Notes under the pieces: model-generated
What the model saw: the letters and a program-made list of their open reading frames with translations, nothing else
What the model was told of the DNA's origin: nothing
Database searches by the model: none
Shown here: positions 27,725 through 51,940 of the stretch, in pieces
Numbering within the stretch: the stretch's first letter is position 1
Layout: each line of letters begins with the position of its first letter
Assembly: GCA_016937575.1 (NCBI GenBank)
Contig: JAFHKN010000002.1
Location: 3,035,001 to 3,099,000, forward strand
Length of the DNA stretch: 64,000 bases
DNA from: Roseomonas aeriglobus
Lineage (GTDB): Bacteria > Pseudomonadota > Alphaproteobacteria > Sphingomonadales > Sphingomonadaceae
Direction of reading: 5' to 3'
Made by a program: the position numbers and the translations under genes

Positions 27725-28633
27725 CTAGCCGATCATTGCGCCTGCCAGATGCTGCAACTTGTCGGGGTTGCGAACGATGTAGATCGCTGCGATCTTGCCG
27801 TCCCGTATATCGAGGGCGGTAGTTTGCACGAGGCCGCGATCGACGCTGATGTAGCCAGGCAGGCCATCAATCTCGGCAGTGCGTAGCAGTTGGGCGGTCG
27901 GCGCGTTCTTGCGCTGCAGTCCGGCGAACAAGCGCAGCGCGCGATCAACGCCGCGGATCACGTTGCGGAAGGCCATGACCTTGCCGCCGCCGTCCGAGTG
28001 GATCTCCACCTCTTGGGCAAGCAGCGAGGCAAGTGAGGCGGTATCGCCATCGCGTGCGGCAACGAAGAACGCCTGAGTTATCCGGTCTGCCTCGGCTGCT
28101 TCCACGCTGAAGCGCGGTCGCGCGGCCTGGATATGCTTGCGTGCGCGAGAAGCCAGCTGGCGCACAGCAGCCGGCTCCCGACTAAGCGTCACCGCAACGT
28201 CGCTCAGAGCCACATCGAATACGTCGTGCAGCAGGAAAGCTGCGCGTTCCAGCGGCGACAGGCGCTCCATCGCGAGCATCAGCGTGACCGTGAGATCGTC
28301 GGCAATCGCTTCATCGGGATCGGTCGAGCCCACCAGCGGGTCTGGCAGCCATGGGCCGATGTAAGTTTCGCGGCGCGAGCGAGCGGATTTCAGGCGATCG
28401 AGGCATAGCCGGGTGACGACCCGCGTGAGATAGGCGGCGGGCGAGTCGATGCCACCCTCGACCTGCTCCCATTTCAACCAGCTATCCTGGACGACGTCCT
28501 CGGCTTCGCTGAACGAGCCGAGCATTCGATAGGCCAGGCGGACAAGACGCTTACGCTCGCGCTGAAAGTCACCCAAGCGAGAACTCGGTCCGATCGTCTT
28601 TGCTGACACCTTCGCGCTGTCGACCCTCGTCAT
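27725..28633 (-). CDS. ECF41-group sigma factor (SigJ type) with SnoaL-like C-terminal extension
   Basis: This is an alternative sigma factor. Region 2 (RLVRLAYRMLGSFSEAEDVVQDSWLKW) and region 4 (LSPLERAAFLLHDVF ... SREPAAVRQLASRARKHI) are clear. The ECF41 hallmarks are all present: the WLPDP linker motif, a SnoaL-like domain with DGGGK, and the late NPDKL, which in this group modulate sigma activity in place of an anti-sigma factor. ATG 28633 has GGAG upstream; a longer frame would run through the promoter. It is divergent from a carboxymuconolactone-decarboxylase gene, the classic ECF41 context. Confidence 0.93.
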   Translation of the reverse strand: MTRVDSAKVSAKTIGPSSRLGDFQRERKRLVRLAYRMLGSFSEAEDVVQDSWLKWEQVEGGIDSPAAYLTRVVTRLCLDRLKSARSRRETYIGPWLPDPLVGSTDPDEAIADDLTVTLMLAMERLSPLERAAFLLHDVFDVALSDVAVTLSREPAAVRQLASRARKHIQAARPRFSVEAAEADRITQAFFVAARDGDTASLASLLAQEVEIHSDGGGKVMAFRNVIRGVDRALRLFAGLQRKNAPTAQLLRTAEIDGLPGYISVDRGLVQTTALDIRDGKIAAIYIVRNPDKLQHLAGAMIG

Positions 28634-28663
28634 CTTGCGTCGCTCCAATGGTTTCCCTGATCT

Positions 28664-28690
28664 GACGAGCCAGCTCGCTGCAGTGTGACA
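28664..28690 (-). promoter_or_regulatory. ECF41-type promoter of the sigma factor gene
   Basis: On the minus strand TGTCACA (28690-28684), 16 bases, then CGTC (28667-28664). This equals the published ECF41 promoter motif TGTCACA-N16-CGTC exactly and ends about 30 bases before the sigma factor start, implying autoregulation. Confidence 0.85.
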
Positions 28691-28722
28691 TGGTCGCAGG
28701 CAGAACGAAAATTCCTGGGGCA

Positions 28723-28749
28723 TGTCACATCGCCAGAGCCCGCCTCGTC
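28723..28749 (+). promoter_or_regulatory. ECF41-type promoter of the decarboxylase-like gene
   Basis: TGTCACA (28723-28729), 16 bases, then CGTC (28746-28749): an exact ECF41 motif on the plus strand. It lies 46 bases before the GTG start at 28796. Confidence 0.88.
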
Positions 28750-28795
28750 AGTGCAGCGAGCGTCACTTGGGCGCTGCTGCAAGAGGAGTGATGGC

Positions 28796-29251
28796 GTGAA
28801 CGAGATCAAAAGGCTGGTGTGGCATGAGGTTGCGCCCGTGGGCGCCAAGGCACTGTTCGGCGTGCACCACTACGTAACAACGGGCACCAACTTGCCGGAA
28901 GAGATGATCCACCTCGTGTTCCTGCGCGTGTCGCAGATCAACGGCTGCGCGCACTGCATCGACCTGCATACGCGCGACCTGCTCAAGACAATGCCGCTCG
29001 ACAAGGTGGTGCTGCTGCCGGTGTGGGCTGAGGTGCCCCACCTCTTCGATCCGCGATACCGCGCAGCCCTTGCCTGGGCCGAAGAAGTTACGCGTGTCAG
29101 CGAGACCCATGCCTCGGACGACGCCTATGCCGCAGTAGCGGCAGTGTTCGAGCCACGTGACTTGGTCGACCTGACCATCGCGATCGCGGCGATGAACGCC
29201 TTCAACCGGCTTGGCGCGCCATTTCGTTTGCCGGTCAAAGCCAAGCCCTGA
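28796..29251 (+). CDS. Carboxymuconolactone decarboxylase/AhpD-like protein
   Basis: The 151-residue helical protein has the AhpD-type redox motif NGCAHCIDLH (CxxC...H), seen in peroxidase-like members of the family. It is the expected ECF41 target gene and has an ECF41 promoter motif upstream. The GTG at 28796 is preceded by AAGAGGAG with good spacing; earlier in-frame starts lie inside the promoter. The sequence suggests a thiol-dependent detoxifying or redox role; the true substrate is unknown. Confidence 0.9.
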   Translation: MNEIKRLVWHEVAPVGAKALFGVHHYVTTGTNLPEEMIHLVFLRVSQINGCAHCIDLHTRDLLKTMPLDKVVLLPVWAEVPHLFDPRYRAALAWAEEVTRVSETHASDDAYAAVAAVFEPRDLVDLTIAIAAMNAFNRLGAPFRLPVKAKP

Positions 29252-29280
29252 CACTTCCCGACGTATCGGATCTACTGATC

Positions 29281-29760
29281 ATGACCGAACGACTAAATCA
29301 CATGCGCCAGGTGCCGGCGCTGACGCAGAAGCTCACCGAACTTACCCTCACACTCAAGAAGGGGACAGTCGAGCAGACCATCCTGAGCTTGATCGAGATA
29401 CGAACGTCGCAGCTCAATGGCTGTGCCTTCTGCCTCGACATGCACGTCAAACAGGCCAAGCTCCACGGCGAGCGCGAGCTGCGCCTCCACCACCTCGCGA
29501 TCTGGCGTGAATCGACCCTGTTCAGTGATCGCGAGCGCGCTGCACTGACATGGACCGAAGCGCTCACCCGGCTCTCGCCCCACGGCGTGGCAGACGACAT
29601 CTACGCGGACGCACGCGCGCAGTTCTCGGAAGATGAGCTCGTCTACCTCACCTACATGGTGATGGTGATCAACGCTTGGAATCGCGCCTCGATTGCGTTC
29701 CGGCCGGTGCCCGGGTCGCAGGACAAGGCTTTTGGGCTGGATAAATCAGGGCTGTCTTGA
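29281..29760 (+). CDS. Second carboxymuconolactone decarboxylase/AhpD-like protein
   Basis: The 159-residue protein carries the same motif, NGCAFCLDMH, in a helical AhpD-like fold (LSLIEIRTSQLNGCAFC, then DRERAALTWTEALTRL). It follows the first copy by 29 bp on the same strand, so it is probably co-transcribed from the ECF41 promoter. The two copies are clearly divergent, not a recent duplication. They may form a hetero-oligomer or act on different substrates. Confidence 0.9.
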   Translation: MTERLNHMRQVPALTQKLTELTLTLKKGTVEQTILSLIEIRTSQLNGCAFCLDMHVKQAKLHGERELRLHHLAIWRESTLFSDRERAALTWTEALTRLSPHGVADDIYADARAQFSEDELVYLTYMVMVINAWNRASIAFRPVPGSQDKAFGLDKSGLS

Positions 29761-30295
29761 TCGAGAGCATGAGTTATTCATCGAGCGGTCGCCCAAAGGC
29801 GCTCAAGTCAAATGAACGGCCGCTCGTCCGAAGACTCGCAGTCTTCCGCTATGCGCCCTCATCTCCGCCATTCTGGTTCCGCTCGATCGATCCCGAAAGT
29901 TGCAGTTCGTTCAAGCCAGTTTGTCCGGTCAAAGACTGCGAGTACGCTTTCGGGTGGCGATCGCTGCCGTTCGTCCTGCGTCCGTCGCTTGAACCGGACA
30001 AGTCGGGTTGGCAGAGGACAGAGCATAGGTATGACGGCAAGGATCCGCCGTGAAGTCTGATCCACCTAACGACTACCGATCCAACTTGCGGACAGGGTCC
30101 GTGACCTTGATTTCGCGCCATCGTCGTCGAACGGGTTGTTCCGGCAGTTCGGAGTAATCGTCAACGAATCCCATGCCATCAAACTACGTGAGGACCCCTG
30201 CAATTCAATGCCCGCGGACTCGACCCCGGGACGTCAGCATCGCCCGTGCCTCGAAACGTCAGAGGCTACTCATATGAGCAGGTTGGCGATCCGGT
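29761..30295. other. Gene-poor stretch
   Basis: I see no convincing gene in these 535 bases. Short open frames are present on both strands but lack ribosome sites and conserved-looking sequence. A small perfect hairpin GAAGACT-CGC-AGTCTTC lies near 29827. The region may be a decayed gene or an old insertion border. Confidence 0.5.
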
Positions 30296-30550
30296 TCAGG
30301 TCCCGACGTACCGCAACCCTAACTTACCATCTGCTTGCGTCCAGCATACCAGCGCAGGCCGATCCGCTCTGTCCCAGCGTACGGCAATTTGCTGGCCCAC
30401 CTCGAACGCGTGCGTGCAATGCGCGCGTGCGCCAGTGTCGCTGACGTCCAGCAGATGCGCGCGATACTCGTTGCCGTTCGAAGTGATGATCGACACCTCA
30501 AACACTTTGATTCGGACAGCGTCGCGGCGCTCAGTGGCGGAGGTCGGCAT
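30296..30550 (-). CDS. PilZ-domain protein (84 aa)
   Basis: PilZ domains bind cyclic di-GMP. The protein opens TSATERRDAVRIKVFEVSI, an R-x-x-x-R-like basic segment, and has the second motif DVSDTGARAHC (D/N-x-S-x-x-G), followed by beta strands up to LGLRYVG. It consists of the domain alone, so it is probably an adaptor. Its start overlaps the TpsB-type gene stop by 1 bp, so the two are co-translated, linking cyclic di-GMP to that secretion pore. Confidence 0.82.
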   Translation of the reverse strand: MPTSATERRDAVRIKVFEVSIITSNGNEYRAHLLDVSDTGARAHCTHAFEVGQQIAVRWDRADRPALVCWTQADGKLGLRYVGT

Positions 30551-32187
30551 CAGAACACCTTCAGCAAGCGGAGGTTTAGGCGGGGGTCGTGACTATCGGT
30601 CTCGTAGCGTGGGCCGGACAGCGGCACCGCGACTTCGACATTGGCATCGATCGATGAACTGACGTCGGCCCTGACACCACCGCCGCCGGACACGAGTCCG
30701 CCACCACCGAACCCCCCGGCAAGGTTCGTCACCCGCCCGCCATCAACGAAACTGTAAAGTTGCGCCTTGCGGCCCAGGCCCAGGGGGTTGCGCCAGTCGT
30801 AGCGCAGCTCGGCGAGGCCCATATAACCCTGGTCACCGGACCGCTCGCTATAGTCATAGCCGCGCAGGAACGCGCTGCCGCCGATGCCGATCTCCTCGGC
30901 GACGAGAAGAGGGGCGCTCGAGACTTGGGCCTGGGTGGCGAGACGCAAGCTGACCCCACCGCCCAGCGGCCGGGTCCAGTCCGCCCAGCCGAGCAGCGCC
31001 GTGAACGTGCCGTCGGCATCGTCACGCGACGCCATCGGATCGCCGGCTCGCGTGGCGCCTAGGCCATCCAACCCACGCGAAAGCGTGAGCGTCCCGCGAA
31101 GAACACCGCCGGCGGCCTGCATGTTGCCGTTTACGCTGACCCGGACCGCGAAGATGCGGTCGCGCCGGCGCCGCTCACCCGCGCGGAACTGTTCAACGTC
31201 GCGCACGCTCAGATTGCCACCCAACCACAGGCTGGCGTTGCGACGACGGTGAAGAGGGTGAAGTAGGGAAATGGTCGCCGACACGCTGTCACCGGCAATG
31301 TCGAACGCATCCAGATAGGCACCCGGGCGCGTCGACGATGCGGCGACGGCGACCGCGACTTCGGTCCCGTCGCGGCTGACGCGCTTGCTGTATCCGGTAC
31401 GGACATATTGCAGCTCGTCGGGTTCGAACGGTGTAGTCACATACGTAACCGTGAATGCATCGTCGGACGAAAAGACACCGTTGATGTCGGCGTCGAGGCG
31501 CAGCTGTTCGGGACCGATCGGCGCCGTACTGTCGTTCTCCAGCACGGCACGGATGCGCGATTGGGTCGCGTGGGTCTTTACGACCAGCGTCCCGTGGCCG
31601 TCCTCGCGGACGAAGGCGCTGCGCAGGATGGTGACGCCGTCGATATCGCCGGCGACCAGCAGGCGACGCTCGACCTCGTTCATGCGCGCCGGTTTCCCGA
31701 TCAACGGCGCGAGCGCTGCGCGGACGGCGGAGTTGTCGTCGCCGTCGATGCGCACCGCCTCCAGCACGCCCGGATCATAGCGAATTTTGAGAACACCGGC
31801 GGCAAGGCGTTGTGGCACGATCGACGCGGAAGCAAAGACATAGCCGCGACCGCGCGCGCGGCTGCCGATCTCCTCTGTCAGCCGGATCAGGTCGTCGGCG
31901 CCGAGCGACCGCCCGATGTAGCGCGCGACGATGTCGGAAAAGTCGCGCTCCGTCAGGCCCTGCAAGCCATCGAACGTAATGGCGCCGACATCGATCGCGC
32001 CACTTGCCGGCACTGCCGTCGCAGGTCCGGTCGCCTCGACGACGGGTGTCGGTTCGCGAACCTTTGCGGGCTTGGGAAGATTGTCGCGCTCGATCCGCGC
32101 CGGATCGACCCGATCGATTGCTGTCTGGGCAAGCGCGGGCGACGCCATCGCGATGGCGCAAGCACTTGTCCAGACTCTGATGTGCAT
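30550..32187 (-). CDS. ShlB/FhaC-type outer-membrane transporter (TpsB)
   Basis: TpsB proteins are 16-strand Omp85-like barrels that secrete one large partner (TpsA). The signal peptide VWTSACAIAMASPALAQ is followed by a Pro-rich plug-like helix region, a POTRA domain (GAIDVGAITFDGLQGLTERD) and the barrel. The barrel includes the conserved FLRGYDYSERSGDQGYMG motif (family RGY/FRGY type) and ends in an aromatic residue (LRLLKVF). It is 545 residues, full length for the family. No TpsA is adjacent. The PilZ gene follows and the FecR-type gene is divergent. Confidence 0.92.
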   Translation of the reverse strand: MHIRVWTSACAIAMASPALAQTAIDRVDPARIERDNLPKPAKVREPTPVVEATGPATAVPASGAIDVGAITFDGLQGLTERDFSDIVARYIGRSLGADDLIRLTEEIGSRARGRGYVFASASIVPQRLAAGVLKIRYDPGVLEAVRIDGDDNSAVRAALAPLIGKPARMNEVERRLLVAGDIDGVTILRSAFVREDGHGTLVVKTHATQSRIRAVLENDSTAPIGPEQLRLDADINGVFSSDDAFTVTYVTTPFEPDELQYVRTGYSKRVSRDGTEVAVAVAASSTRPGAYLDAFDIAGDSVSATISLLHPLHRRRNASLWLGGNLSVRDVEQFRAGERRRRDRIFAVRVSVNGNMQAAGGVLRGTLTLSRGLDGLGATRAGDPMASRDDADGTFTALLGWADWTRPLGGGVSLRLATQAQVSSAPLLVAEEIGIGGSAFLRGYDYSERSGDQGYMGLAELRYDWRNPLGLGRKAQLYSFVDGGRVTNLAGGFGGGGLVSGGGGVRADVSSSIDANVEVAVPLSGPRYETDSHDPRLNLRLLKVF

Positions 32188-32338
32188 CAATTTTACGGCC
32201 TGCAGTATTCGCGAAGTCCAAGCAGTAGCAGCCAAAGTGTTACAAAAGGCTCAAATTTACGGAATTTAACCAAGAGTCAGAAGAGCGTGGAAATCTCTGG
32301 GTCCTATTGGCCACGATGAGTCAAAAGGGGATCCATTG

Positions 32339-34783
32339 ATGTCCACGATCTTTCGCGCCGGCGTTGCAGTGCTATGCCTGCTGTCGAGCACATCGGCGCT
32401 GGCGCAGGCGCGGGTCTGGCAGCTGAGCGAAGCGAGCGGTCGTGTAACGGTGACCGACGCTCGCGGAACGCGGCCGGCCGAGCGTGGCATGACGATCGCG
32501 CCGGGAGCCACGGTCCAGACAGCTCCCGGCAGTCGTGCGGTAATGGTGCGCGGACCCGAGTTCGTGACCGTCTCGGCGAACAGTCGCATCCGCGTGCCAG
32601 AGGCGGCACAGCAGACCGGCCTGATCCAGATCTTGCAGGATTGGGGAACGGCGCTGTTTCGAATCGACAAGCAGCCGAACCCGCATTTCGGTGTGAAGAC
32701 GCCGTATCTGGCCGCAGTCGTGAAGGGCACGACTTTTTCGGTCACCGTTTCCCGCGAAGGGGCGTCGATGCAGGTCGTCGAGGGCGCGGTCGAAGTTTCG
32801 ACCGACGATGGCGGCGCACGTGAACTCATCCGACCGGGTTCGCTGGCGCTGGTCACGGCGGCGGATCGATACCGATTGACGGTCCAGGGGGACAACGCGC
32901 ACAGCGTCGATTCCCCCGCGCGATCGGCACCGCCGGCGGCGCGGCCCGCGGTGGATACCTCGCCGACACCCACGCCGCCATCGGATACGCCGCCGCCTGG
33001 CACTAGCGATGGATCATCTGCACCGGCACCATCGACCGACGTTCCGGCGAACGACGTCGTCTCGACCGTGATCGTCGAGAAGCCGGTGGATTTGGGCAAG
33101 GTGACCAACGGCATGATCACCGGTCCAGCTCCCGTCCAGCTTGCGTCGATCGCGGTTTCGCCGGCGACGACCACGGTTGATGTGCGTCCCTTGCCCGCCG
33201 CTGATGCCGAAGCGCGGGCGCGTGCCGAACGCGAGGCGTCGGAGGCGGCTACCCGTGACGCGCAGGCGCGGGCCGCAGAAGCGCAACGACAGGCTGACGT
33301 CGCCGCGGAAGCTGCAGCACAAGCCGCACGGGAGAAGGTCGAGGCGGAGCAGCGTGCTGCCGAAGCAGCGGACCGTGCCGCTCGCGCCGAGGCTGCGGAA
33401 CAGGCACGTGTTGCAGAAGCTCGTGCGCGTGACGAAGCAAAGGCTGTAGACGATGCCCGGCAGGCCGCCGAAGCGGCACAAAGGGCAGCCGAACAAAGTG
33501 CCAGGAACGACGCCAAGACGGCCGACGACAAGGCGAAGCACGACGCAAGCGCGGCGGACGATGCAAAGAAGGCTGCCGATGACGCAGCCAAGAATGCGGC
33601 CGAGGCCGATAAGAAGTCCGCCGACGAAGCCAAGAAGGCAGTCGACGAGGCCAGAAAGGCGCAGGACGCGCTCGACAAGGCAGCGGCCGACGCTGCAAAA
33701 AAGGCCGCCGACGAAGCCAAGAAGGCAGCCGACGAGGCCAGAAAGGCGCAGGACGCGCTCGACAAGGCAGCGGCCGACGCTGCAAGAAAGGCCGCGGACG
33801 ACGCTAAGAAAGCCGCTGATGACGCGCGCAAGGCCGCCGATGACGCGACCAAGAATGCCGCTGAGGCCGACAAGAAGGCCGCCGACGAAGCCAAGAAGGC
33901 AGCGGACGAGGCCAGGAAGGCGCAGGACGCGCTCGACAAGGCGGCGGCCGATGCTGCGAAAAAGGCCGCGGACGACGCTAAGAAAGCCGCTGATGACGCG
34001 CGCAAGGCTGCCGACGACGCGGCCAAAAATGCGGCCGAGGCGGACAAGAAGGCCGCCGACGAAGCCAAGAAGGCAGCGGACGAGGCCAGGAAGGCCCAGG
34101 ACGCGCTCGACAAGGCGGCGGCGGATGCCGTGAAAAAGGCTGCCGAGGACGCGAAGAAGGCACAGGATGCGCTAGACAAAGCTGCCGCAGACGCCGCGAA
34201 GAAGGCGGCAGACGATGCAAAAAAGGCCGCCGACGAGGCGCGCAAGGCCGCCGAGGATGCGGCGAAAAAATCGGCTGAGGCTGACAAAAGGGCTGCTGAC
34301 GAGGCCAAGAAGGCGGCTGAGGAAGCAAAAAGGGCGCAGGACGCGCTCGACAAGTCGGCCGCCGACGCCGCGAAGAAGGCGGCCGAGGACGCGAAGAAGG
34401 CGGCCGACGACGCAGCGAAGGACGCGGCGGACACCGCGAAGAAGGCGGCGGACGCGGAAAAGAAAGCTGCCGAAGAGGCTAAGAAGGCTGCAGACGAAAC
34501 TGCCAAGCTCGACGCAAAGGCGGCGGAGGACGCGAAGAAGGCTGCCGAGGAGCAGGCCAAGCTCGACGCAAAGGCCGCAGAAGACGCGAAGAAAGCTGCC
34601 GAGGACGCCAAGAAGGCGGCGGACGAGGCGACCAAGGCTGCCGAGGATGCCGCCAAGAAGGCTGCAGAGGATGCGAAGAAGGCCGCTGACGAGGCCAAGA
34701 AGGCGGCGGACGATGCCGCCAAGAAGGCTGCCGACGAGGCCAAAAAGGCCGCCGAGGATCTTAAGAAGGGCGTGGGTATCTAA
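32339..34783 (+). CDS. FecR-domain protein with a long Ala/Lys rod
   Basis: The 814-residue protein has a signal peptide ([16 protein letters not shown]), a FecR-type beta domain (about residues 30-165, with [15 protein letters not shown] and VVEGAVEVS), a Pro/Ser/Thr linker (about 190-270) and then roughly 500 residues of Ala/Lys/Asp/Glu-rich helix made from repeats such as [20 protein letters not shown]. The rod resembles TolA domain II or LEA-type helices. There is no membrane anchor after the signal, so it is exported to the periplasm or beyond. It is divergent from the TpsB-type gene. A GGGG ribosome site precedes ATG 32339. Confidence 0.88.
33560..34760 (+). repeat. Tandem repeats encoding the Ala/Lys rod
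   Basis: The DNA is internally repetitive with an 87-bp (29-codon) unit clearly seen at 33620 and 33707, and longer block duplications around 33811-33980 and 33991-34140. Differences are mostly silent or A/V exchanges, so copy number may vary between strains. Confidence 0.85.
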
Positions 34784-34875
34784 CCTCGCCCCGCTCTGCG
34801 GCGGGCCCTGCAATATCGTTCAAGCCGGGTGCTATCCTTGGGAAAACATTAGTCATTCTCCGGTAGGATGCCGCG

Positions 34876-37209
34876 ATGGACCTTCGCTTCTTTGCCGCCG
34901 GAATTCGCAATCGCCTGTCCAAGCGTCATGTGATGGCCGGCATCGTCTCAGTGTCTTTGGCGCTCGCCGTGCTGTGTGGGGTGACCGGTAGTGGCATCGG
35001 TGTAGAGCGAATGCTCTCGGCCTGGAGCGCCGCGCTACGCAGCCATCCGGCGAGCGGCGACCTGCACATCGTCGAAGTCGATGCGGCCAGCATCGCCGCG
35101 ATCGATGACTGGCCATGGTCGCGCGCGGAACATGCGAAGGTGGTCGACCGGCTGCGTGCCGCTGGCGCAAGCGTGATCGCCTTTGACATCGACTTTTCCT
35201 CCCGCTCCAGTCGCGCGGGCGACGCAGCTTTCGCCGCGGCGATCGATCGGGCGGCCGGTCGTGTCATCCTGCCGACTTTCCGGCAGACGTCCGGTAGCCG
35301 CAATGAGAGCGAGATCGACGCACTGCCGGCGGCTGCGCTGCGGCAGAACGCTGCCCTCGCGGCCGTCAGCGTTCTGCCCGATCGCGATGGCGCCATCCGG
35401 GAGGCGCCGATCGGCACCGTCACGGCCGGGGTTCCGCGGCCATCATTGTCGGCGATGCTGGCGGGGCGGGCAGGGGCCGCGGGCGCATCCTTCCCGATCG
35501 ATTATGCGATCGATCCGACGACGATCCCCCGGCACAGTTTCATCGACATCCGCGACGGGCGGTTCGACCCGGCCACGGTTCGAGGCCGCCAATTCCTGAT
35601 CGGCGCGACCGCGATCGAACTGGGTGATCGCTATCCCATTCCGAATTACGGGGTCGTTCCCGGCGTTCTCGTCCAGGCACTGGCCGCGGAAACGCTCGCA
35701 CGCGGTGTACCCTCCCGGGTCGGCTGGCCCGTCGCCATTGTCATCGCCCTGTTGTGTGCGATCGGGATCGTCCGGACACGGCGCAGTTTTGACCTCGCCG
35801 TTGTCGGCGTGGCTTGCCCGGTCATTGTCTTTCTGTTGGCCGTCGGTCTGCAGGCGGCGTTCGGCATTGTCGTCGCGCTAGTCCCGGCGCTGCTTCTGCT
35901 CGGCTGCACCCTTTTCGCCACCATCGCGGCGCGTTTGGCCCTGGCCTGGCACGCACGACGCTTGCATGACCCGGTGACCGGCTTGCCCAATCGTCAGGCG
36001 CTGGCGGTGTTCCTGCGGGGCGGCTCGACGGGCGGTGTCGTCGTCGCGCGCATCGCCGATTTCGAGAAATTGGCAAGCGGCCTGTCTAGCGAAGCCACCG
36101 GGCAAGTCATGCTTCGGCTCGCTGATCGCATCCGCCTGGTCAGCGAGGACGCGCAGATCCATCGGATTAACGATCGCATGTTGGCGTGGCCGGCGACGAT
36201 CACCATCGACCAGGTGGCGGACCGATATGCGACGCTCCGCACGTTGATGCTGTCACCGATCGAGATCGGCGGACGCCGGATCGATGTCAGCCTGTCCATC
36301 GGTATCGCCGATAGCTGCGCCAAAGATTCCGAGCAGACGATCGCCAATGCCGCTCTTGCCGCCGAGCAGGCGCATGAGGCGCAGAGCGGATGGCACCTTC
36401 ATACGGACGCGGAGGGTGAGGCTGTCGACCGCGACCTCTCGCTGCTGGGGGAACTGACCGAAGCTGTCGAGCGGGGTGAACTGACGGTTCACTATCAGCC
36501 TAAGCTCGATATCGCTTCCGGCCGCATTGCCAGCGTTGAGGCGCTGGTACGCTGGGACCATCCGACGCGAGGCTTCCTGCGCCCCGACCTGTTCATCCCG
36601 CTTGCCGAGCGCAACGACCGCATCGAGGGGCTGACGCTGGCCGTGATCGAGCAGACCATTGCCGATCTGAAGGGTTGGGCGGCGCATGGGCACGCGCTGA
36701 CCGCCGCGGTCAACCTGTCGGCGAAGCTGCTTAGCTCCGACAGCTTCAACGCTGATCTTATCGCGCTCTTGCATCGCACCGGCGTCGCGCCCGAACGACT
36801 GATCTTCGAGGTGACTGAGTCGGCCGCAATGGTTGAGCCGGAAGCCGCCCAGGCGGCGCTCACGCGATTCCGGGAAATGGGCGTCGCGGTCTCGATGGAT
36901 GACTATGGCACGGGCCAGTCGACGCTGTCATATTTGAAGCGCTTGCCGCTCACCGAAGTGAAGATTGACCGGAGCTTCGTCCAATATGCCCATCAGAATC
37001 GTGGCGATGCCATCTTGGTACGCTCGACCGTCGACCTCGCCCACGAATTGGGGCTGAAGGTTGTTGCAGAGGGCGTTGAAGACGAAGCCTGCCTCGCTTT
37101 TCTCTCCTCTATCAATTGCGACATGGCGCAAGGATATCTCATCAGTCGTCCTGTCGATGCGAACGAGATTACCGCAATGCTATCCAGTAAGGCAGCAAAA
37201 GTCGCGTGA
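34876..37209 (+). CDS. CHASE2 - degenerate GGDEF - EAL phosphodiesterase
   Basis: The protein probably degrades cyclic di-GMP in response to a periplasmic cue. One N-terminal helix leads into a CHASE2 sensor (about residues 40-275, with HIVEVDAASIAAIDDWPWSR and FDIDF), then three or so transmembrane helices (about 280-355). A GGDEF-like domain follows in which the signature is INDRM, so it should not make cyclic di-GMP. The EAL domain has EALVRW, NLSAKLL, DDYGTGQS, KIDRSFV and AEGVED, all residues needed for activity. ATG 34876 has GGTAGGA upstream. It follows the FecR-rod gene on the same strand. Confidence 0.92.
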   Translation: MDLRFFAAGIRNRLSKRHVMAGIVSVSLALAVLCGVTGSGIGVERMLSAWSAALRSHPASGDLHIVEVDAASIAAIDDWPWSRAEHAKVVDRLRAAGASVIAFDIDFSSRSSRAGDAAFAAAIDRAAGRVILPTFRQTSGSRNESEIDALPAAALRQNAALAAVSVLPDRDGAIREAPIGTVTAGVPRPSLSAMLAGRAGAAGASFPIDYAIDPTTIPRHSFIDIRDGRFDPATVRGRQFLIGATAIELGDRYPIPNYGVVPGVLVQALAAETLARGVPSRVGWPVAIVIALLCAIGIVRTRRSFDLAVVGVACPVIVFLLAVGLQAAFGIVVALVPALLLLGCTLFATIAARLALAWHARRLHDPVTGLPNRQALAVFLRGGSTGGVVVARIADFEKLASGLSSEATGQVMLRLADRIRLVSEDAQIHRINDRMLAWPATITIDQVADRYATLRTLMLSPIEIGGRRIDVSLSIGIADSCAKDSEQTIANAALAAEQAHEAQSGWHLHTDAEGEAVDRDLSLLGELTEAVERGELTVHYQPKLDIASGRIASVEALVRWDHPTRGFLRPDLFIPLAERNDRIEGLTLAVIEQTIADLKGWAAHGHALTAAVNLSAKLLSSDSFNADLIALLHRTGVAPERLIFEVTESAAMVEPEAAQAALTRFREMGVAVSMDDYGTGQSTLSYLKRLPLTEVKIDRSFVQYAHQNRGDAILVRSTVDLAHELGLKVVAEGVEDEACLAFLSSINCDMAQGYLISRPVDANEITAMLSSKAAKVA

Positions 37210-37235
37210 CGATAGTCGAACCCTAGGCAGACGAT

Positions 37236-39008
37236 ATGCCCAAACGATCGATCAAAGAAATCTTGTCTATACTGCTCCTCGGCGTGCTTTATCTCACGCT
37301 AGCTGCTGCCGCGATTAAGCTGACCCGCTTCGAAGGCGGGGTTGCCTTTATCTCTGTGGCAAACGCCGCGCTCCTTGCCCGATTGCTGACGCTGCGGCCT
37401 CCGCGCTGGATGCCGCATTTGGCTAGCTGCGCACTCGCCGGGATGGTCGCAACCGCCTGGGTCGGCCTCGGGGTTGTCGCGGCCATCCCGATGGCATGCG
37501 TGAACCTTTTTGAGGTAGTAGCGGCGGCGTTAATCCTTCGGCGCGTTAGCCCGAGCCCCAGCAAGACGGGATCTCGGGCAAGCCTCCCTTGGTTTTTGTT
37601 CGCCGCAGGCGGGGCGGCTCCTGCGCTGAGTGCGTTCGGCGGCGCAGCAGTGGCGACGGTGCTTGGCGGTGACAGCTACTGGGGCAATTGGGCGCACTGG
37701 TACGCGGGCCATGCTTTGGGTGCGGTGACCTGCACCCCGATCGCCGTTTATTTCCTGCGCGGCGATGCCAAGGCTTGGGCTATGATGGCGAAGCCGGCGG
37801 CAGTAATTGAAGCGGCTGCGTTAATTCTGCTTGTCGCCCTTACCAGTGTGTTCGTGTTTGCGCAGGACGGATTTCCGCTATTGTTCCTGCCCATGCTTCC
37901 CATAATTTTGGCTACCTTTCGACTGGGTCGATTAGGTGCGGCCGCGTCTATCGTCTTGCTAACTGTGATCAGCGGATGGCTTACAATTGCTGGGCACGGA
38001 CCCCTTGGTCTGTTGACCGGGCCAGTCGGCGAGCGAGTACAATTCTTTCAATTCTACTTAGCGTGCATAGTCCTCACGATACTTCCAATCAGCGCGGAAC
38101 TCGCGCGCCGTAACGCACTCTATCGACGCTTGCACGAAAGCGAGGCGCGCTATCGGCTCCTCACCGAGAATTCGACCGACATCATCGTCAATCTCGATCT
38201 GAGCGGCCGCATACGGTTCGCTTCATCATCGATCCAACAGATTAACGGGTACACACCCAAAGGCGTGATCGGCCGTCGCGCTTCGCAGATGGTCCACCGG
38301 GAAGACCTGGGCGAGGTAATTAGAGCGCATGCAAGAGCTATCTCAGACCCAAATTGCACAGTCATCGCCGAATTCCGCGCTCGGGATTCGATTGGTAAGA
38401 CGCGATGGTTCGAGACCCAGACCCGTGCAGTCATCGATGAGGCGGGCAGGGTAAACGGATTGGTGAGCGCGATCCGTGACGTCGACCACCGCAAATCAGT
38501 CGAGAGACGACTTCTTGCGGCGGCGATGACCGACCAGCTAACCGGCATTGCGAATCGGGGCGCGTTTGACGCGCAGCTCAATCTCGCAATTGAGCGCGCG
38601 GGACCAGATGGCTTTGGATGTGTCGCGTTGTTTGACCTCGATCATTTTAAGGCGGTGAACGATTGCTATGGTCATGCTGCGGGCGACGCGGTTCTTCGCG
38701 TCTTCGCGGATCTTGTGCGTGATCGGATGTGCGACAGGGACTTCGTCGCGCGCTTCGGCGGCGAGGAGTTCGCGGTCATTCTACCTGGTGCGACAGCCGA
38801 ACAGGCCGAGTTGATCTGCGATCGGTTGCGCGTGGCTGTTGCCTCGGCCTCGATTTCGGTCGCGGGAGTCAGCATCCATGTTACCGTCAGCGGCGGTGTG
38901 GCTCGGTATGACAGAGCCGTCACAGCCGCAGGGGTTCTGGCCGCCGCCGACCGGGCGCTTTACGAGGCCAAGAAAGCGGGTCGGGATCGCTTGAGGCTAG
39001 CTGCCTAA
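37236..39008 (+). CDS. MASE1-PAS-GGDEF diguanylate cyclase
   Basis: The 590-residue protein should synthesise cyclic di-GMP. Eight or so N-terminal helices form a MASE1-type sensor (about residues 10-290), followed by a PAS domain (ESEARYRLLTENSTDIIVNLD) and a GGDEF domain with DQLTGIANRGAFD, DLDHFKAVND and the intact signature RFGGEEF. It lies 26 bp behind the EAL gene, so the pair has opposing predicted activities. Codon use and base composition look AT-richer than in the first 20 kb. Confidence 0.92.
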   Translation: MPKRSIKEILSILLLGVLYLTLAAAAIKLTRFEGGVAFISVANAALLARLLTLRPPRWMPHLASCALAGMVATAWVGLGVVAAIPMACVNLFEVVAAALILRRVSPSPSKTGSRASLPWFLFAAGGAAPALSAFGGAAVATVLGGDSYWGNWAHWYAGHALGAVTCTPIAVYFLRGDAKAWAMMAKPAAVIEAAALILLVALTSVFVFAQDGFPLLFLPMLPIILATFRLGRLGAAASIVLLTVISGWLTIAGHGPLGLLTGPVGERVQFFQFYLACIVLTILPISAELARRNALYRRLHESEARYRLLTENSTDIIVNLDLSGRIRFASSSIQQINGYTPKGVIGRRASQMVHREDLGEVIRAHARAISDPNCTVIAEFRARDSIGKTRWFETQTRAVIDEAGRVNGLVSAIRDVDHRKSVERRLLAAAMTDQLTGIANRGAFDAQLNLAIERAGPDGFGCVALFDLDHFKAVNDCYGHAAGDAVLRVFADLVRDRMCDRDFVARFGGEEFAVILPGATAEQAELICDRLRVAVASASISVAGVSIHVTVSGGVARYDRAVTAAGVLAAADRALYEAKKAGRDRLRLAA

Positions 39009-39271
39009 CAGGTTCAACCGACAACGGAGGTTCGAAGAAACTCGTCCCTCTGTAAACGTTGCGGATTCGCTCGAATTTTCCCTCGTATAACTCTCACGGA
39101 TAAGCCCGTTCGCTTTCTAAAGTTTCAGCCATCCGACGGCATTGCAGAAATCCCGCTCTCGCCAAGAAACGGATGAACGTTAAGCGGTTGTGTAGCTTGC
39201 AATTGAATTTTGTCGTTAACCCCCCGTTTACACCATCCTGTAATAATTCCAGCACTTAAAGGGCCGGGTTT
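39009..39271. other. AT-rich intergenic region before the Tad-like genes
   Basis: These 263 bases contain no gene. The sequence is markedly AT-rich and may hold the promoter of the three pilus-type genes, but I see no box I can assign. Confidence 0.45.
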
Positions 39272-41164
39272 ATGCCAGGATGGTTTAGCGCAAGTCGTGT
39301 CTTTCGTGATGATCATCGTGCGGCAGTGCTGCCCATGATGGCGATAGGGCTTATCCCTGTCATCATTGCTCTCGGGTCAGCAATCGACATGGGGCGGATC
39401 TACGTTGCAAAATCGGCGCTACAGGCCGGGGTTGATGCTGCGGCCTTGGCAGGCGCTCGAGCCTACAACGTATCCGGCAGTATGCCGACATCCCGCGAAA
39501 GTCAGGTTAACGCGTATTTCTTTGGCAACTTCCCGGACGGCACGATGGGTGCTCAAAACCTATCGCTGACACCGCGGTTTGAAACTGTAGCTAATCGCAA
39601 TCAAACGACGGTCAAGGCGACAATAGATTTGCCAATGACGTTCATGCGCGCGTTCGGGTTCTCACAGCAATCGATAGAGGCGATAGCGACCGCTGAAATA
39701 CAGCCGCACCCGCTTGAGGTCATGATGGTGCTCGATAACACTGGCTCGCTCAGGGCGAACCTGCCTGCCGATGCAACCGGGGTGATCAAGACGCGCATTT
39801 CGGCCCTCAAGGACGCCTCGCGCAGCTTTCTCGACATCCTTTATCAGGGCGCCGAGTCGCGCGCCGACCTGGCGCTCGGTTTCGTGATGTACGATATCAC
39901 CGTCAACGTCGGAAAGTTGCTGCCGTCGGGAATGGTGAAGCAAAAGGCAGCCTACAACGATCAGTATATGAACTCGTATGGCGGCACATGGCCAACACAG
40001 CCGCTGGCTTGGAAGGGATGTGTCTTCGGCGACACAACCGTGCGCGACCTGACCTCTACTGTAAGTTATGCCGACCCCGGCGCTTGGGACATCGACCGCA
40101 CGCTACCAGGTGAGAATGGACATCCGTCTATTGAGCCATATTTTATCCCGCCGTTCTACGTTCCTCGGATTGCTGCGAGCGCCGCCGATGCGGCAACAAA
40201 GTCCAACTCGACCGGTGATTTCTACAAATACTCGTCAGTAGAGCCTGGGTTCAACCTTTATCGGCTGCATGCGAGCTACGCCGACGCTATGCTGAATATG
40301 GACCTTTCTGGTGATAACTTTGCGTCGAATCCCTATCGGCGCTGGTTTTATCAATATTACCTCGGGCTCAATAACGGTGCTACGACGGCGGCCGACGACG
40401 TAATCACGACAACGAGTGGAGCCTACTACGATCCGTCCACCATGACGTGGGATTTCAAAACGAACACCGGAACGCCATTTAAGGTAAATTACGATCGCAT
40501 TCCGCGTTTAAGTGCGGATTGGCGCGACCCAACTGCTTACCGCATCAATCCTAACGGTGGATCCACGGACAACTCCAGTCAGAACAAGACTGAAACACCC
40601 TCCCCCAATTGGCAGTGTCCGGAAGAGGCCGAGCCGATCACCTACGGTCGATCGAAGAACTACTGGCTGAACGTAGTAAGTCAGAAAAACGCCGCGATCT
40701 ATCCCGCCAACGGCACACTGCATCACGCAGGTTTGTTGTGGGGATATCGATTGCTGGTCCGCGATGACATTTTCAAGCGGGTCAACCCTGTCAACGAACG
40801 GGCAAAACGTGCCTTAGTGTTCATGACAGATGGCGAGACGGCCCTGGGTACGACGCAGAACGGATATACCGACCGCACCTGGACTTTTTACGGAAATTAT
40901 GCGGATGCGCCGATTAGCGCAAACGCTGGTAACTTAATCAGTCAGTCGGAGCGGCGCTTTGCTAAAACCTGTGCGTCGTTGCAGGCTGAGGCGAACCCGC
41001 CGAAAGTTTATATCGTCGCGCTGACCACTACGGACGCCGGCACGCTATCGATGTTCGAGAAATGCGCGCCTAGCCACGTTTATCGGACGTCCGACGCGGC
41101 AACCTTAAAGGCAGCGTTTGACGACATCGCGTCCGAGCTCGTCGACCTGCACCTGGTCAAATAA
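39272..41164 (+). CDS. TadG-like pilus assembly protein
   Basis: The 630-residue protein begins with the Tad_N segment: VFRDDHRAAVLPMMAIGLIPVI and one transmembrane helix, then the family's RIYVAKSALQAGVDAAALAGAR. A von Willebrand A-type region starts at VMMVLDNTGSLR (MIDAS-like D-x-T-x-S) and resumes with LVFMTDGET. It is probably anchored in the inner membrane with a periplasmic body that helps assemble Flp/Tad-type pili. No tadA, tadB, tadC or flp gene is in the window. Confidence 0.88.
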   Translation: MPGWFSASRVFRDDHRAAVLPMMAIGLIPVIIALGSAIDMGRIYVAKSALQAGVDAAALAGARAYNVSGSMPTSRESQVNAYFFGNFPDGTMGAQNLSLTPRFETVANRNQTTVKATIDLPMTFMRAFGFSQQSIEAIATAEIQPHPLEVMMVLDNTGSLRANLPADATGVIKTRISALKDASRSFLDILYQGAESRADLALGFVMYDITVNVGKLLPSGMVKQKAAYNDQYMNSYGGTWPTQPLAWKGCVFGDTTVRDLTSTVSYADPGAWDIDRTLPGENGHPSIEPYFIPPFYVPRIAASAADAATKSNSTGDFYKYSSVEPGFNLYRLHASYADAMLNMDLSGDNFASNPYRRWFYQYYLGLNNGATTAADDVITTTSGAYYDPSTMTWDFKTNTGTPFKVNYDRIPRLSADWRDPTAYRINPNGGSTDNSSQNKTETPSPNWQCPEEAEPITYGRSKNYWLNVVSQKNAAIYPANGTLHHAGLLWGYRLLVRDDIFKRVNPVNERAKRALVFMTDGETALGTTQNGYTDRTWTFYGNYADAPISANAGNLISQSERRFAKTCASLQAEANPPKVYIVALTTTDAGTLSMFEKCAPSHVYRTSDAATLKAAFDDIASELVDLHLVK

Positions 41165-41166
41165 TC

Positions 41167-41739
41167 ATGGCCACACTGTCTCAGTGCGAGCGTGGCGTGA
41201 CAATCGTCGAGTTCGCCTTTCTGTCACCGATAATGTTATTTTTGATCTGTGGGGCGGTAGAGATCGGCCACCAGATATTTGCACGCCAAGTGCTTGAAGG
41301 GTCTGTGATGGAGGCCGCGCGCGCGGCGACGGCAACTCTTGAATCAAGTGAGGCTGAACGCATTGCGGTAATGAACGCACGGATCAAGCTCGACATGAAG
41401 CAGTTTCCCGCGCCGGCTGGACGCGAGATTTCCATAGTGACGAAGGTCTATGCCGATTTTGCTTCAGTGACGCCGGAACTGTACACCGATAGCAACAAGA
41501 ATGGCACATATGACTTGGGGGAGCCCTATGTTGACCGTAATAAGAACGGGCGCTGGGACGCCAGCGTGCCAAAGTCAGGAACGCTAGGCGGGCCGGGAGA
41601 CGTTGTTAGCTACACTGTCACTTATCCCAAGCGTGTATTATTCGGTTTCGTCGGGGTGGTCACCGGCATGACAGACGGCGTCGTCCCACTGTCAGCGACT
41701 ACTGTCGTGCGTAACGAGACGCTGAGGCGTAACTCATGA
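41167..41739 (+). CDS. TadE-like pseudopilin with calcium-loop-like repeats
   Basis: The 190-residue protein has the TadE N-terminus CERGVTIVEFAFLSPIMLFL (Gly, then Glu at +5, and a hydrophobic helix), as in prepilin-like proteins. The periplasmic part contains two copies of a D-x-N-x-N-G-x-x-D-type loop, DSNKNGTYDLGEP and DRNKNGRWD, like dockerin or EF-hand calcium sites. It starts 2 bp after the TadG-like stop and overlaps the next gene by 4 bp. Confidence 0.87.
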   Translation: MATLSQCERGVTIVEFAFLSPIMLFLICGAVEIGHQIFARQVLEGSVMEAARAATATLESSEAERIAVMNARIKLDMKQFPAPAGREISIVTKVYADFASVTPELYTDSNKNGTYDLGEPYVDRNKNGRWDASVPKSGTLGGPGDVVSYTVTYPKRVLFGFVGVVTGMTDGVVPLSATTVVRNETLRRNS

Positions 41740-42377
41740 TTATGAAACGACTACGCGACGACCGCCGTGGCGTCTCGTTCCTGGAATTTGGGCTTATCCT
41801 GCCAATCTTTTTAGGCTTCACGCTGACCGCGATCGAATTTGGAAACTTCGTCATGGCTACCAACCGGGTTCAACGCTTGGCCGCAATGTCGAGTGACCTG
41901 GTGGCGCAAAGCGGCAGCGGCGAGATCGGGGTCACCGAGGCGCAAATCTATGATTTGTTCAACGCGTTCGATCTTAGTGCAAAGCCCTATGATCTACGCA
42001 ATTTCGGGCGCATCGTAATTACAGGGGTACAGGGAACTGATAACGACAACAACTCGATAGTCGAGAACCGGATTCTATGGCAGCGCTTCGACGGCGGCTA
42101 TGCGACGATGGCGCCCCTTGTTGGCTGCAATCAGGCGAATGCACTTGCAACCTTGCCGAATGGGCGGACACTCAACCTAGACGAGGTACTGTTCCATGTC
42201 CAAATAAGCTACGAATACCAACCACTGTTTTCGATGCTACCATTTCGCATGGCGAGTCTTGACCCGGCAATCACTCGGGTTTCTATGTTCCGCGCGAGGT
42301 CTAAGGACTTCACGTCTCCGGTTCCCGACAACCGTTTCCCACCAAAGAAAAATTGCAGCAGCCCGACGGGGCTTTAG
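41736..42377 (+). CDS. Second TadE-like pseudopilin
   Basis: The 213-residue protein opens DDRRGVSFLEFGLILPIFLGF, the TadE/pseudopilin N-terminal helix with Gly and Glu in place. The rest is a periplasmic domain (MAPLVGCNQANALATLPNGR and the IPFRM-like LPFRMASLD). The ATG at 41736 overlaps the previous stop. The three genes form one unit, probably the minor pseudopilin part of a Tad system whose machinery lies elsewhere. Confidence 0.86.
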   Translation: MIMKRLRDDRRGVSFLEFGLILPIFLGFTLTAIEFGNFVMATNRVQRLAAMSSDLVAQSGSGEIGVTEAQIYDLFNAFDLSAKPYDLRNFGRIVITGVQGTDNDNNSIVENRILWQRFDGGYATMAPLVGCNQANALATLPNGRTLNLDEVLFHVQISYEYQPLFSMLPFRMASLDPAITRVSMFRARSKDFTSPVPDNRFPPKKNCSSPTGL

Positions 42378-42662
42378 TAACCCGTTTATTGGCCTCTGCT
42401 GATGCCAGCAGTCTGTTCACGGGGTTGTTATCAACTTTCAAGCAGAGTGAGTGGCATTGCCCTTTGGAAGTTCCCTTTTTGGCGTGATGGGCTGAGGGCG
42501 AATTGGACAGCCCTTCGCATCCTTCCCGCGTATGCACCGCCAGAACAGGTAGCGCGAGCGCGACAACCGTCGCGCGGCCGACGCCAAACGATGGTCCCGT
42601 GCGTCGGCGCGATCTGGCGTACCGGCAAGTCCCCCGCCGGTTGCGATAAAAAGCCTTAGGAC
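42378..42662. other. Intergenic region between convergent genes
   Basis: These 285 bases lie between the second TadE-like gene and the minus-strand PilZ gene. I see no gene, no strong terminator and no clear repeat. Confidence 0.45.
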
Positions 42663-42995
42663 TTAGCCGGAATAGCGTGTGCGGACATTTGAAGGCTGAG
42701 GCGGCTTTGCCGTTCGTGCCAACGCGGAGGCGGTTTCGATCGGCACAACAAATTGTAGCCCGATCAGACCGTCCTTTGCCCAGCGGACTTGCGCACCCAC
42801 TTCCGAGAGCGTTCCAATCCCGATAACGAGCGTCTCACCGACGCGGAACGTATCGCAGGCGTCGATGCATGCGCCCGCCGTGGAAAGATTGCGGACCCTG
42901 TGCATCGTCGTCGCGGCCCGCCCAAAGCGTTCCGCCGTGGCAGATAGGAACACGCTTTGACGGGGCATTCTAACTTGATGCACAGCTGTCGACAT
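42663..42995 (-). CDS. PilZ-domain protein (110 aa)
   Basis: The protein reads MPRQSVFLSATAERFGRAATTMHRVRNLSTAGACIDACD. The NLSTAGACI segment is the N-x-S-x-x-G motif of PilZ, and the preceding arginines could serve as the basic motif, although the usual RxxxR spacing is not exact. Beta-strand pattern follows (VGETLVIGIGTLSEVGAQVRWAKDGLIGLQF). The ATG at 42995 is preferred to an earlier in-frame start because homology begins there. It closes the cyclic di-GMP-related region. Confidence 0.8.
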   Translation of the reverse strand: MSTAVHQVRMPRQSVFLSATAERFGRAATTMHRVRNLSTAGACIDACDTFRVGETLVIGIGTLSEVGAQVRWAKDGLIGLQFVVPIETASALARTAKPPQPSNVRTRYSG

Positions 42996-43261
42996 GCTGA
43001 CCGTTTTTGCACGGAAAGGGTAAAGAAGCGGTGATAGCGGCGGACAGCGCTGCTGCGCGCCCGCACGACATCGCTCGACACGCAAGTTTCAAAGGTAGGC
43101 TAGCGCGTCGATGCGATCTGGCGGACGGTAAGGGTGCCGACCGAAGGGTCAAGCAAGAGAGATTTTTCTATTGCCTATTAAGGGCAGAACGATAGATTTA
43201 AATAACGCGATCGCTGATCGTTTCGGCTAACAACCCTTCCCGCTCCTTGCCCAAGCTGGGG

Positions 43262-43618
43262 TCAGGGGCCCGTTGTCTCGCCTGCGGATCGCAGTTCCGC
43301 ATACTTTCGTGTGATCGTCGGGATGCTGTCGAGAACGAGCTGTGCCTTCCGTTGCTCTTCGTTGAGCGACTGTTGGAGGGCGCTCTGCCGCCGGCCAAAG
43401 TCACCAACTCAACGATCGCTAGCAGCGAAGTGTATACGGCGATCTCAGAATTCTCGAATGCGTAATTGGCAAGCGAGTTCTTGATGATCTCGTCAGGGGC
43501 AGGGATTTGGGCGAGAGCGGCGACGTTGCCTGTGAAACTCAAAACGGCGTCCTTCACCGTCGAAGGCGAGGTTTCGAAGTCGGTAATGTCAGCTTTTGAA
43601 CACGTGCCGATTGGAAGC
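43262..43618 (-). pseudogene. Frameshifted ferritin-like (DUF892/YciE-type) remnant
   Basis: One frame on the minus strand reads VKDAVLSFTGNVAALAQIP, DEIIKNSLANYAFENSEIA and TSLLAIVELV, the pattern of the DUF892 ferritin-like helices. About base 43390 the coherent reading moves to another frame: SALQQSLNEEQRKAQLVLD then SIPTITRKYAELRSAG and a stop at 43262. The N-terminal half is missing. This is best read as a truncated, frameshifted pseudogene and not as the 119-residue frame that continues out of phase. Sequencing error at the shift cannot be excluded. Confidence 0.65.
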
Positions 43619-43872
43619 CGCTATTCCGGATACGGCCCAGTAGCGGCCATAAATCCCGCCCGCCCGGCCATTCCCAGACCGACACGGCACTCTATGCGCT
43701 GATGGGCATAACCGTCTGCTGCAGACACATCGGCATTGCAACTTAGACTTTGTCGGTGTGCGACAACATCTGTTGGTGCCCCGTGTGACCGATCGGCGAA
43801 GAGCACGAGAAGTGGAGTGGATGATGGAGGTCGAACGCTGACGTTCGGATGAAATTCACAAGGACCAGGTAG
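43619..43872. other. Intergenic region
   Basis: These 254 bases hold no convincing gene. They lie between the ferritin-like remnant and the start of the next gene and may contain its promoter. Confidence 0.4.
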
Positions 43873-51105: not shown

Positions 51106-51165
51106 GGTCAGGACCCATTGATGTGGGAGGCGCGATCTGATTCAGGCTCCGTGAGGAGAGAGTGG

Positions 51166-51513
51166 ATGAGCGACCTGTACTGGCTGACGGATGAGCAGAT
51201 GGCGCGTCTGCAACCGTTCTTTCCCAAGAGCCATGGCAAGCCTCGGGTCGATGATCGGCGGGTGCTCAGCGGCATCATTTTCGTCAATCGCAACGGGCTA
51301 CGCTGGTGTGATGCACCGAAGGACTATGGGCCGCACAAGACGCTCTACAATCGCTGGAAGCGGTGGAGCGAGAGGGGTATTTTCCTGCGAATGATGGAAG
51401 GTCTCGCGGCAGCGGAGGCCGTGCCGAAGACCGTCATGATCGACGCGACCTACCTGAAGGCACACCGCACGGCATCGAGTCTGCGGGTAAAAAAGGGGAT
51501 CTCGGCCGTCTGA
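51166..51513 (+). CDS. IS5-family transposase, first frame
   Basis: The frame encodes the N-terminal transposase part: MSDLYWLTDEQMARLQPFF, GIIFVNRNGLRWCDAP, the KTLYNRWKRW helix and the first catalytic Asp in VMIDATYLKAH. It stops just after the run of six A (51489-51494) that probably shifts ribosomes into the second frame. ATG 51166 has GAGGAGAG upstream. Confidence 0.9.
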   Translation: MSDLYWLTDEQMARLQPFFPKSHGKPRVDDRRVLSGIIFVNRNGLRWCDAPKDYGPHKTLYNRWKRWSERGIFLRMMEGLAAAEAVPKTVMIDATYLKAHRTASSLRVKKGISAV

Positions 51514-51923: not shown

Positions 51924-51940
51924 CCAATGAGTCCTGACCC

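Follow-up and report, generated by a model that had tools for sequence, protein, structure and literature searches.

The locus considered in this study lies in a stretch of 64,000 nucleotides (hereafter the window) from the genome of Roseomonas aeriglobus, taken from contig JAFHKN010000002.1, positions 3,035,001 to 3,099,000. It encodes a TpsB-type outer-membrane pore, a predicted exported protein that joins a FecR domain to a low-complexity tail, and a CHASE2 transducer. I will refer to these three as the module, since they make up its core, and the module is conserved in Sphingomonas and in other alphaproteobacteria. An initial annotation of the window had placed here the same three genes and a fourth, encoding a single-domain PilZ protein, and all four are found by Pfam (Table 1).

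Table 1. Features of the module and of the duplication that contains it. Coordinates are those of the window unless another contig is named.
Feature	Position	Strand	Evidence and remarks
TpsB-type outer-membrane pore	30550-32235	minus	PF08479 (POTRA_2) and PF03865 (ShlB); likely true start 32190
FecR-domain protein, predicted to be exported, 814 aa	32339-34783	plus	PF04773 at residues 58-152; N-terminal part conserved (30-row alignment)
FecR domain, residues about 25-192	32411-32914	plus	All-beta solenoid-like fold
Conserved short motif, residues 251-262, putative TpsB-docking element	33089-33124	plus	
Low-complexity tail	33125-34780	plus	Hypervariable; Ala/Lys/Asp/Glu-rich in the window protein
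CHASE2 (periplasmic sensor)-degenerate GGDEF-EAL protein, predicted phosphodiesterase	34876-37209	plus	PF05226, PF00563, EAL motifs
Single-domain PilZ protein, 84 aa, accessory	30296-30550	minus	PF07238
Divergent intergenic region, tpsB/fecR	32236-32338		
Segmental duplication, copy 1 (~13.8 kb)	29853-43639		Holds the whole module
Segmental duplication, copy 2	C2:3178125-3193052, same genome		Carries an inserted element of ~840 bp

The window pore is a true TpsB. An N-terminal helix, two POTRA domains and a 16-strand barrel match the FhaC and CdiB pores of two-partner secretion by fold (compare the review PMC5422565, in its account of these pores), and the R-G-Y loop motif is conserved in TpsB. 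Its stop codon overlaps the ATG of the PilZ gene by one base. The FecR-domain protein begins with a signal-like helix, and its tail of about 550 residues, the "rod" of the initial annotation, is a genuine repeat frame, with units that include 87 and 174 bp. In the CHASE2-EAL protein the EAL, DDYGTG and EGVE motifs are kept and the GGDEF motif is absent (the GGDEF match falls just under the Pfam cut-off), a combination that fits an active phosphodiesterase. No protein of the module reaches the cut-off of any NCBIfam model; the only matches above cut-off are generic GGDEF and PAS models for a neighboring gene, among the best 25 of the 27 matches of that gene. Rfam gave no match in the window at gathering scores, and the result of a promoter scan was no better than chance.

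The TpsB was sought in 150 genomes, R. aeriglobus included. Matches of at least 219 bits (the next scored 165) define a clade of 30 loci in 28 of the genomes. A search of the same 150 genomes with the CHASE2 portion of the window protein gave a top group of at least 262 bits (the next scored 180), which occurs in exactly the 28 genomes that hold the clade TpsB. Outside the R. aeriglobus genome there are 28 clade loci, with FecR beside TpsB in 27 and CHASE2-EAL in 27; contig ends account for the two misses (L067 for FecR, L043 for CHASE2). Sphingomonas strain Leaf33 is among the carriers of the module (locus L009). As controls I took the twelve ShlB loci that scored next (L069-L080, 24-30% identical), and none of them has a FecR or CHASE2 partner. 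When the genes of 69 loci were clustered, only three families recurred, in 61, 58 and 57 loci, the next being in 8. TpsB is divergent from FecR in 64 of the 68 loci scored, the longest frames overlapping in the remaining four, and CHASE2-EAL comes after FecR in 45 loci and behind TpsB in 14. The initial annotation would have been overturned had its four genes not occurred together. That outcome did not appear: three of the four, TpsB, FecR and CHASE2, keep company in many genomes, and the PilZ gene is the one outside this core.

The same arrangement reaches beyond the genus. A survey of the order (396 genomes) found a FecR clade (at least 93 bits, next 54) in 58 genomes, all within one family. 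Loci were examined from 40 of these 58 genomes, representing 17 genera, with TpsB adjacent in 38 and CHASE2-EAL in 36. The four CHASE2 misses (L156, L163, L165, L173) are again contig ends, and the two TpsB misses (L183, L185) both belong to genus g40. The genomes of L183 and L185 have no ShlB match anywhere, and beside FecR, in place of TpsB, stands a 306-residue protein resembling an outer-membrane barrel, whose Pfam match is above the cut-off in L183 (SlipAM, marginal) and below it in L185. These modules (L183:8696-11217 and L185:6809-9417) consist of CHASE2-EAL, a FecR protein with a Val-Glu repeat tail, and then the 306-residue protein; a third g40 species (L184) retains a divergent TpsB. 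In a survey of the class (385 genomes), the FecR profile matched 28 genomes, 25 of them outside the family, and one place was examined in each of 20 of these 25. TpsB is adjacent in 12 (L220-L231) and CHASE2 in 17, bearing in mind that the contig ends before CHASE2 in L221, L225 and L233 and before TpsB in L232. The initial annotation regarded the combination as undescribed, and a literature search limited to openly licensed papers found no published TpsB-FecR-CHASE2 unit; FecR-CHASE2 operons have already been described.

What the module lacks is the gene that a TpsB pore usually has beside it. Type Vb two-partner secretion (TPS) is recognized by a linked TpsA whose TPS domain is detected by PF05860, and no such gene stands at the window locus. 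PF05860 has no match in the whole R. aeriglobus genome. A TpsA elsewhere in this genome, which the initial annotation had allowed for, is therefore refuted as far as PF05860 sees. Matches in 45 of the 150 genomes serve as a working control; 14 built-in control genomes also gave none. A linked TPS-domain gene was found beside the clade TpsB in 0 of 30 loci, whereas each of the 12 control TpsB loci has a frame for a TPS domain no more than about 2 kb away (Fisher 9e-11, uncorrected for relatedness), so the initial annotation was right that no TpsA is near, and a TpsA consistently linked in relatives, which would have told against it, did not appear. In 19 of the 28 clade genomes there is no PF05860 match anywhere, and at an E value of 0.001 no TPS match was found in 18 of 38 family-set genomes or in 9 of 12 class-set genomes. 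Compared with the FhaC and CdiB systems as described in PMC5422565, the window module is without TpsA, TPS domain or beta-helical passenger. I considered whether the FecR domain might be a TPS domain in disguise, a comparison that the initial annotation had proposed, and rejected the idea at the level of sequence: comparison of the two profiles (hhalign) gave a probability of 0.1, and the best fold matches are FecR domains. Both folds are beta-solenoid-like, a likeness that may be taken as a loose analogy only.

What remains as a candidate partner for the pore is the FecR protein, as in one of the two readings of the initial annotation. In the clustering of 69 loci, no exported product besides it keeps company with TpsB. 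Its defining part is not the rod, however, for the chemistry of the tail is exchanged between orthologues, among Ala-rich, Pro-Glu, Gly-Asn and Asp-Gly repeats, and tail lengths vary widely, up to 656 residues. (Counts of tail classes rest on 56 of 69 rows, with "other", "short" and open-ended tails excluded, and the tail tree omits L151, which has a short domain, and L067, which has no FecR on its contig.) After the FecR domain and a variable linker sits a motif, (D/N/S)(L/I/V)xxxTxGL(V/I), in which four residues of the window protein, L252, T256, G258 and G262, vary little or not at all across the 30-row alignment. A weight-matrix scan scored several true-looking distant motifs low (L222-L225, L227, L228), and a fixed pattern, chosen after the sequences were seen, was used instead. 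It occurs in 68 of 81 TpsB-linked FecR proteins, against 0.54 expected from shuffled linkers, and always 80-151 residues past the KGT of the FecR domain; counted among the 81 are both R. aeriglobus copies and L232, where the pattern is present and the contig ends before the TpsB side. On inspection, seven of the 13 misses have a motif that departs from the pattern at a single letter (L162, L053, L056, L057, L064, L180, L227). The pattern is found in none of nine TpsB-less FecR proteins, eight of which have a CHASE2 neighbor and the ninth of which (L233) is at a contig end, indicating that the motif is not needed for the FecR-CHASE2 pair. The tie between motif and TpsB is no more than suggestive, given only two independent changes of TpsB state on the tree and a pattern defined post hoc, and I do not put the motif forward as a proven TpsB signal. 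By analogy, it would fit the POTRA2 groove of FhaC, which is suited to amphipathic segments according to the part of the review that treats it (PMC5422565).

The output of the transducer is exchanged as well. Ten CHASE2 proteins from outside the family were scanned: eight are histidine kinases and two carry EAL (L231, with GGDEF, and L239). Eight of the ten are TpsB-linked, and seven of those are kinases. In most of the relatives scanned outside the Sphingomonads a kinase thus takes the place of EAL, and a change in the output of CHASE2 leaves TpsB and FecR in place. Genomes of the genus of R. aeriglobus also have LysM-FecR proteins paired with CHASE2 kinases (L191, L196-L198).

The PilZ gene is a recurrent accessory and not part of the core. 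A dedicated search of 82 loci gave 17 matching frames, with L062, L184 and the window stretch contributing two apiece. Pfam was consulted for ten of the frames; it confirmed nine and did not confirm L167. PilZ frames no farther than about 230 bp from one of the module genes occur in 12 of 70 Sphingomonad loci (the window, L009, L048, L055, L062, L068, L157, L164, L167, L171, L183 and L184), L167 being counted without Pfam confirmation, and in none of the 12 class loci with TpsB. The place of PilZ varies: it can follow TpsB or FecR, lie between FecR and CHASE2, or adjoin CHASE2-EAL, so that the placement beside TpsB, by which the initial annotation made it a member of the set, is a local one. 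PilZ was rejected as a core part because it does not recur as a family in the clustering of 69 loci; the scattered pattern suits an accessory receptor of cyclic di-GMP (c-di-GMP).

Several known systems resemble parts of the module. The "BiofilmReg" operon of Burkholderia, as its description in PMC5192318 has it, pairs a FecR-LysM protein with a CHASE2 histidine kinase, and an exported FecR-domain protein paired with a CHASE2 transducer is likewise what is found in the window. That operon differs in having LysM instead of a low-complexity tail, a kinase with a response regulator, and, in that description, no TpsB; the window protein has no LysM match by Pfam and its output is EAL. The LysM-FecR/CHASE2 kinases mentioned above, from the genus of R. 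aeriglobus itself, resemble the Burkholderia type as so described. In Sinorhizobium meliloti, the outer-membrane barrel NsrA works with the CHASE2 adenylate cyclases CyaK, CyaD1 and CyaD2 (PMC7529298, PMC13001267, in the portions concerning these proteins). There too a barrel in the outer membrane feeds an inner-membrane CHASE2 enzyme that works on a nucleotide messenger, but the barrel is a receptor and not a TpsB, and the messenger is cyclic AMP (cAMP), not c-di-GMP. A CHASE2 adenylate cyclase of Campylobacterota clusters with a FecR-domain outer-membrane protein, and FecR, CHASE2 and the outer-membrane protein were suggested to form one pathway (PMC9239204); the output is a cyclase, the cluster has a TPR protein and a cAMP phosphodiesterase, and the account of the cluster names no TpsB.

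Two further comparisons concern how a protein might be held and read at the outer membrane. CdrA is a TpsA held by a periplasmic C-terminal tail and released by LapG. In CdrA/CdrB with LapD/LapG, and in LapA, a periplasmic part keeps a surface protein at its outer-membrane pore, and the arrangement is tied to c-di-GMP (PMC5422565, PMC13090378, in the passages on these proteins). In the window module FecR and CHASE2 would take that place, and a loose LapG-like site pattern after the FecR domain is found in 4 of 90 FecR proteins (L050, L061, L065, L239), the window protein not among them. The FecA-FecR-FecI and PupB-PupR-PupI systems, as presented in the relevant part of PMC7186176, share the periplasmic FecR domain fold with the window protein. 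They differ in that the window protein is soluble and exported, without an anti-sigma or membrane part, and that its output goes via CHASE2. Pfam finds only FecR in it, with no anti-sigma domain, and neither an adjacent sigma factor nor a TonB-dependent transducer recurs as a family beside the module.

With the three-gene unit, the missing TpsA, the domains and folds, the exchange of tails and outputs and the co-occurrence of the motif as observed foundation, I propose a contact, an export and a signal. The FecR protein would be an unconventional partner of TpsB, its tail outward and its FecR domain in the periplasm, read by CHASE2, a proposal that I believe about as readily as I doubt it; that the three proteins form a signaling line across the cell envelope is probable. 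Sec would carry the FecR-domain protein into the periplasm, judging from the signal peptide in its sequence, where it would dock on TpsB by its motif. The repetitive tail might then pass out through the barrel and reach the surface; the FecR domain, judging from its fold, would be left on the periplasmic side to act as a plug or a reporter. The inner-membrane CHASE2 domain would read whether that domain is free, docked, or under load. The output would be breakdown of c-di-GMP by EAL in Sphingomonads and a histidine-kinase phosphorelay in most of the scanned relatives outside; where PilZ occurs, it would serve EAL-type modules as an added local receptor of c-di-GMP. The NsrA-CHASE2 cyclases, the FecR/CHASE2 cyclase clusters and CdrA/CdrB make these steps plausible. 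The initial annotation had c-di-GMP merely switching secretion, and the pairing of a CHASE2 sensor with FecR points instead to signaling.

A number of observations weigh against this proposal. The FecR and TPS profiles are unrelated, and the motif is missing from six TpsB-linked loci (L174-L176, L178 and L179, of genus g30, and L231), its link with TpsB resting on only two independent contrasts on the tree, which shared ancestry could explain. FecR-CHASE2 pairs exist without TpsB (L234-L239), so that TpsB is not needed for the pair, and the 306-residue substitute in g40 would hardly pass a protein tail, its marginal SlipAM match in L183 notwithstanding. The tail chemistries resemble periplasm-spanning linkers, Ala/Lys as in TolA and Pro-Glu as in TonB, and so the tail need not leave the periplasm. 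In the chief rival, the FecR protein stays periplasmic, its tail a spacer to the outer membrane or peptidoglycan, and TpsB is a receptor or sensor that touches the FecR domain in the manner of FecA or PupB, with CHASE2-EAL as the read-out. A spacer would be free to change its chemistry, PupR-type FecR domains do bind an outer-membrane transducer in the periplasm, the LysM on FecR proteins of other CHASE2-kinase loci in the genus suggests wall binding, and a non-TpsB barrel stands in for TpsB in the two g40 genomes. Nonetheless I consider this rival rather doubtful, since TpsB retains a full translocon architecture (the POTRA domains and the R-G-Y loop), more than a mere receptor should need, and extended tails of the greatest lengths would far exceed the periplasm, in a set whose lengths vary widely.

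If instead TpsB simply released the whole FecR protein as a surface or matrix protein, CHASE2-EAL would only tune biofilm formation, and no signal would pass from outside to inside. The locus has no other conserved exported product, and Gly-Asn or Ala-rich tails do look like matrix material, but the FecR domain is a known periplasmic signaling fold and pairs with CHASE2 even in the absence of TpsB, which argues that contact between the two is the core function and makes simple release unlikely. Finally, TpsB might export a TpsA or some other remote protein, FecR and CHASE2 being a separate pair of neighbors. There is an unlinked TPS match in 9 of 28 clade genomes, in 20 of 38 family genomes (8 of the 20 below the family cut-off) and in 3 of 12 class genomes, and these too count against the proposed partnership. 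In the nine clade genomes, however, the match is on a different contig or separated by more than 500 kb, and in five it adjoins a second TpsB; of all the matches, the one nearest to a module is about 56 kb off (G355). The majority of the clade genomes, R. aeriglobus included, have none at all, which leaves for R. aeriglobus a substrate without a TPS domain as the surviving form of the idea, and the linkage of the three genes is near-perfect over 17 genera of the family and extends to other families. I regard a remote substrate as very improbable.

A wider generalization, offered as a speculation with somewhat less than even prospects, is that FecR proteins of this kind constitute a second class of TpsB passenger, in which some 12 residues of motif do the work of the 250-residue TPS domain, a low-complexity tail, fast-evolving and chemically arbitrary, is displayed through the pore, and the FecR domain remains periplasmic and is wired to CHASE2, the pore becoming a surface antenna that sets c-di-GMP or a phosphorelay across many families of Alphaproteobacteria. 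If the proposed partnership is true, then the partner of a TpsB pore need not have a TPS domain, orphan TpsB genes that now carry the annotation "hemolysin secretion proteins" belong to a signaling line, and CHASE2, whose inputs are mostly unknown, gains a defined partner and an outer-membrane point of entry. A variable tail beside fixed neighbors also raises a testable question: which job depends on low complexity alone.

The R. aeriglobus genome carries the module twice, in copies of a segmental duplication about 113 kb apart (Table 1). In blastn the module shows ~91-93% identity between the copies and the part downstream of it ~99%, a hint of uneven homogenization between them. Protein identities are 99% for PilZ, 98% for TpsB and 94% for CHASE2-EAL. 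The FecR open frames comprise 815 and 917 codons, and since their N-terminal parts are 98% identical, the difference in length sits in the tail repeats. A third CHASE2-EAL protein of the same genome (L189:5986-8334), about 77 kb before the window and 32% identical, adjoins no FecR or TpsB match.

The next gene after CHASE2-EAL in the window encodes a MASE1-PAS-GGDEF diguanylate cyclase (37236-39008), which could oppose CHASE2-EAL locally; it was rejected as a core part because it does not recur as a family across the 69 loci. Farther downstream (51103-51942) lies a transposon-like element of ~840 bp with an apparent two-frame transposase, of which several identical or nearly identical copies are found nearby (L003, L006/L007, L008); copy 2 of the duplication contains one of these. 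On the other side of the module, positions 27725-29760 encode, by their Pfam domains, an ECF-type sigma factor and two proteins of the carboxymuconolactone-decarboxylase family, presumably an ordinary oxidative-stress set.
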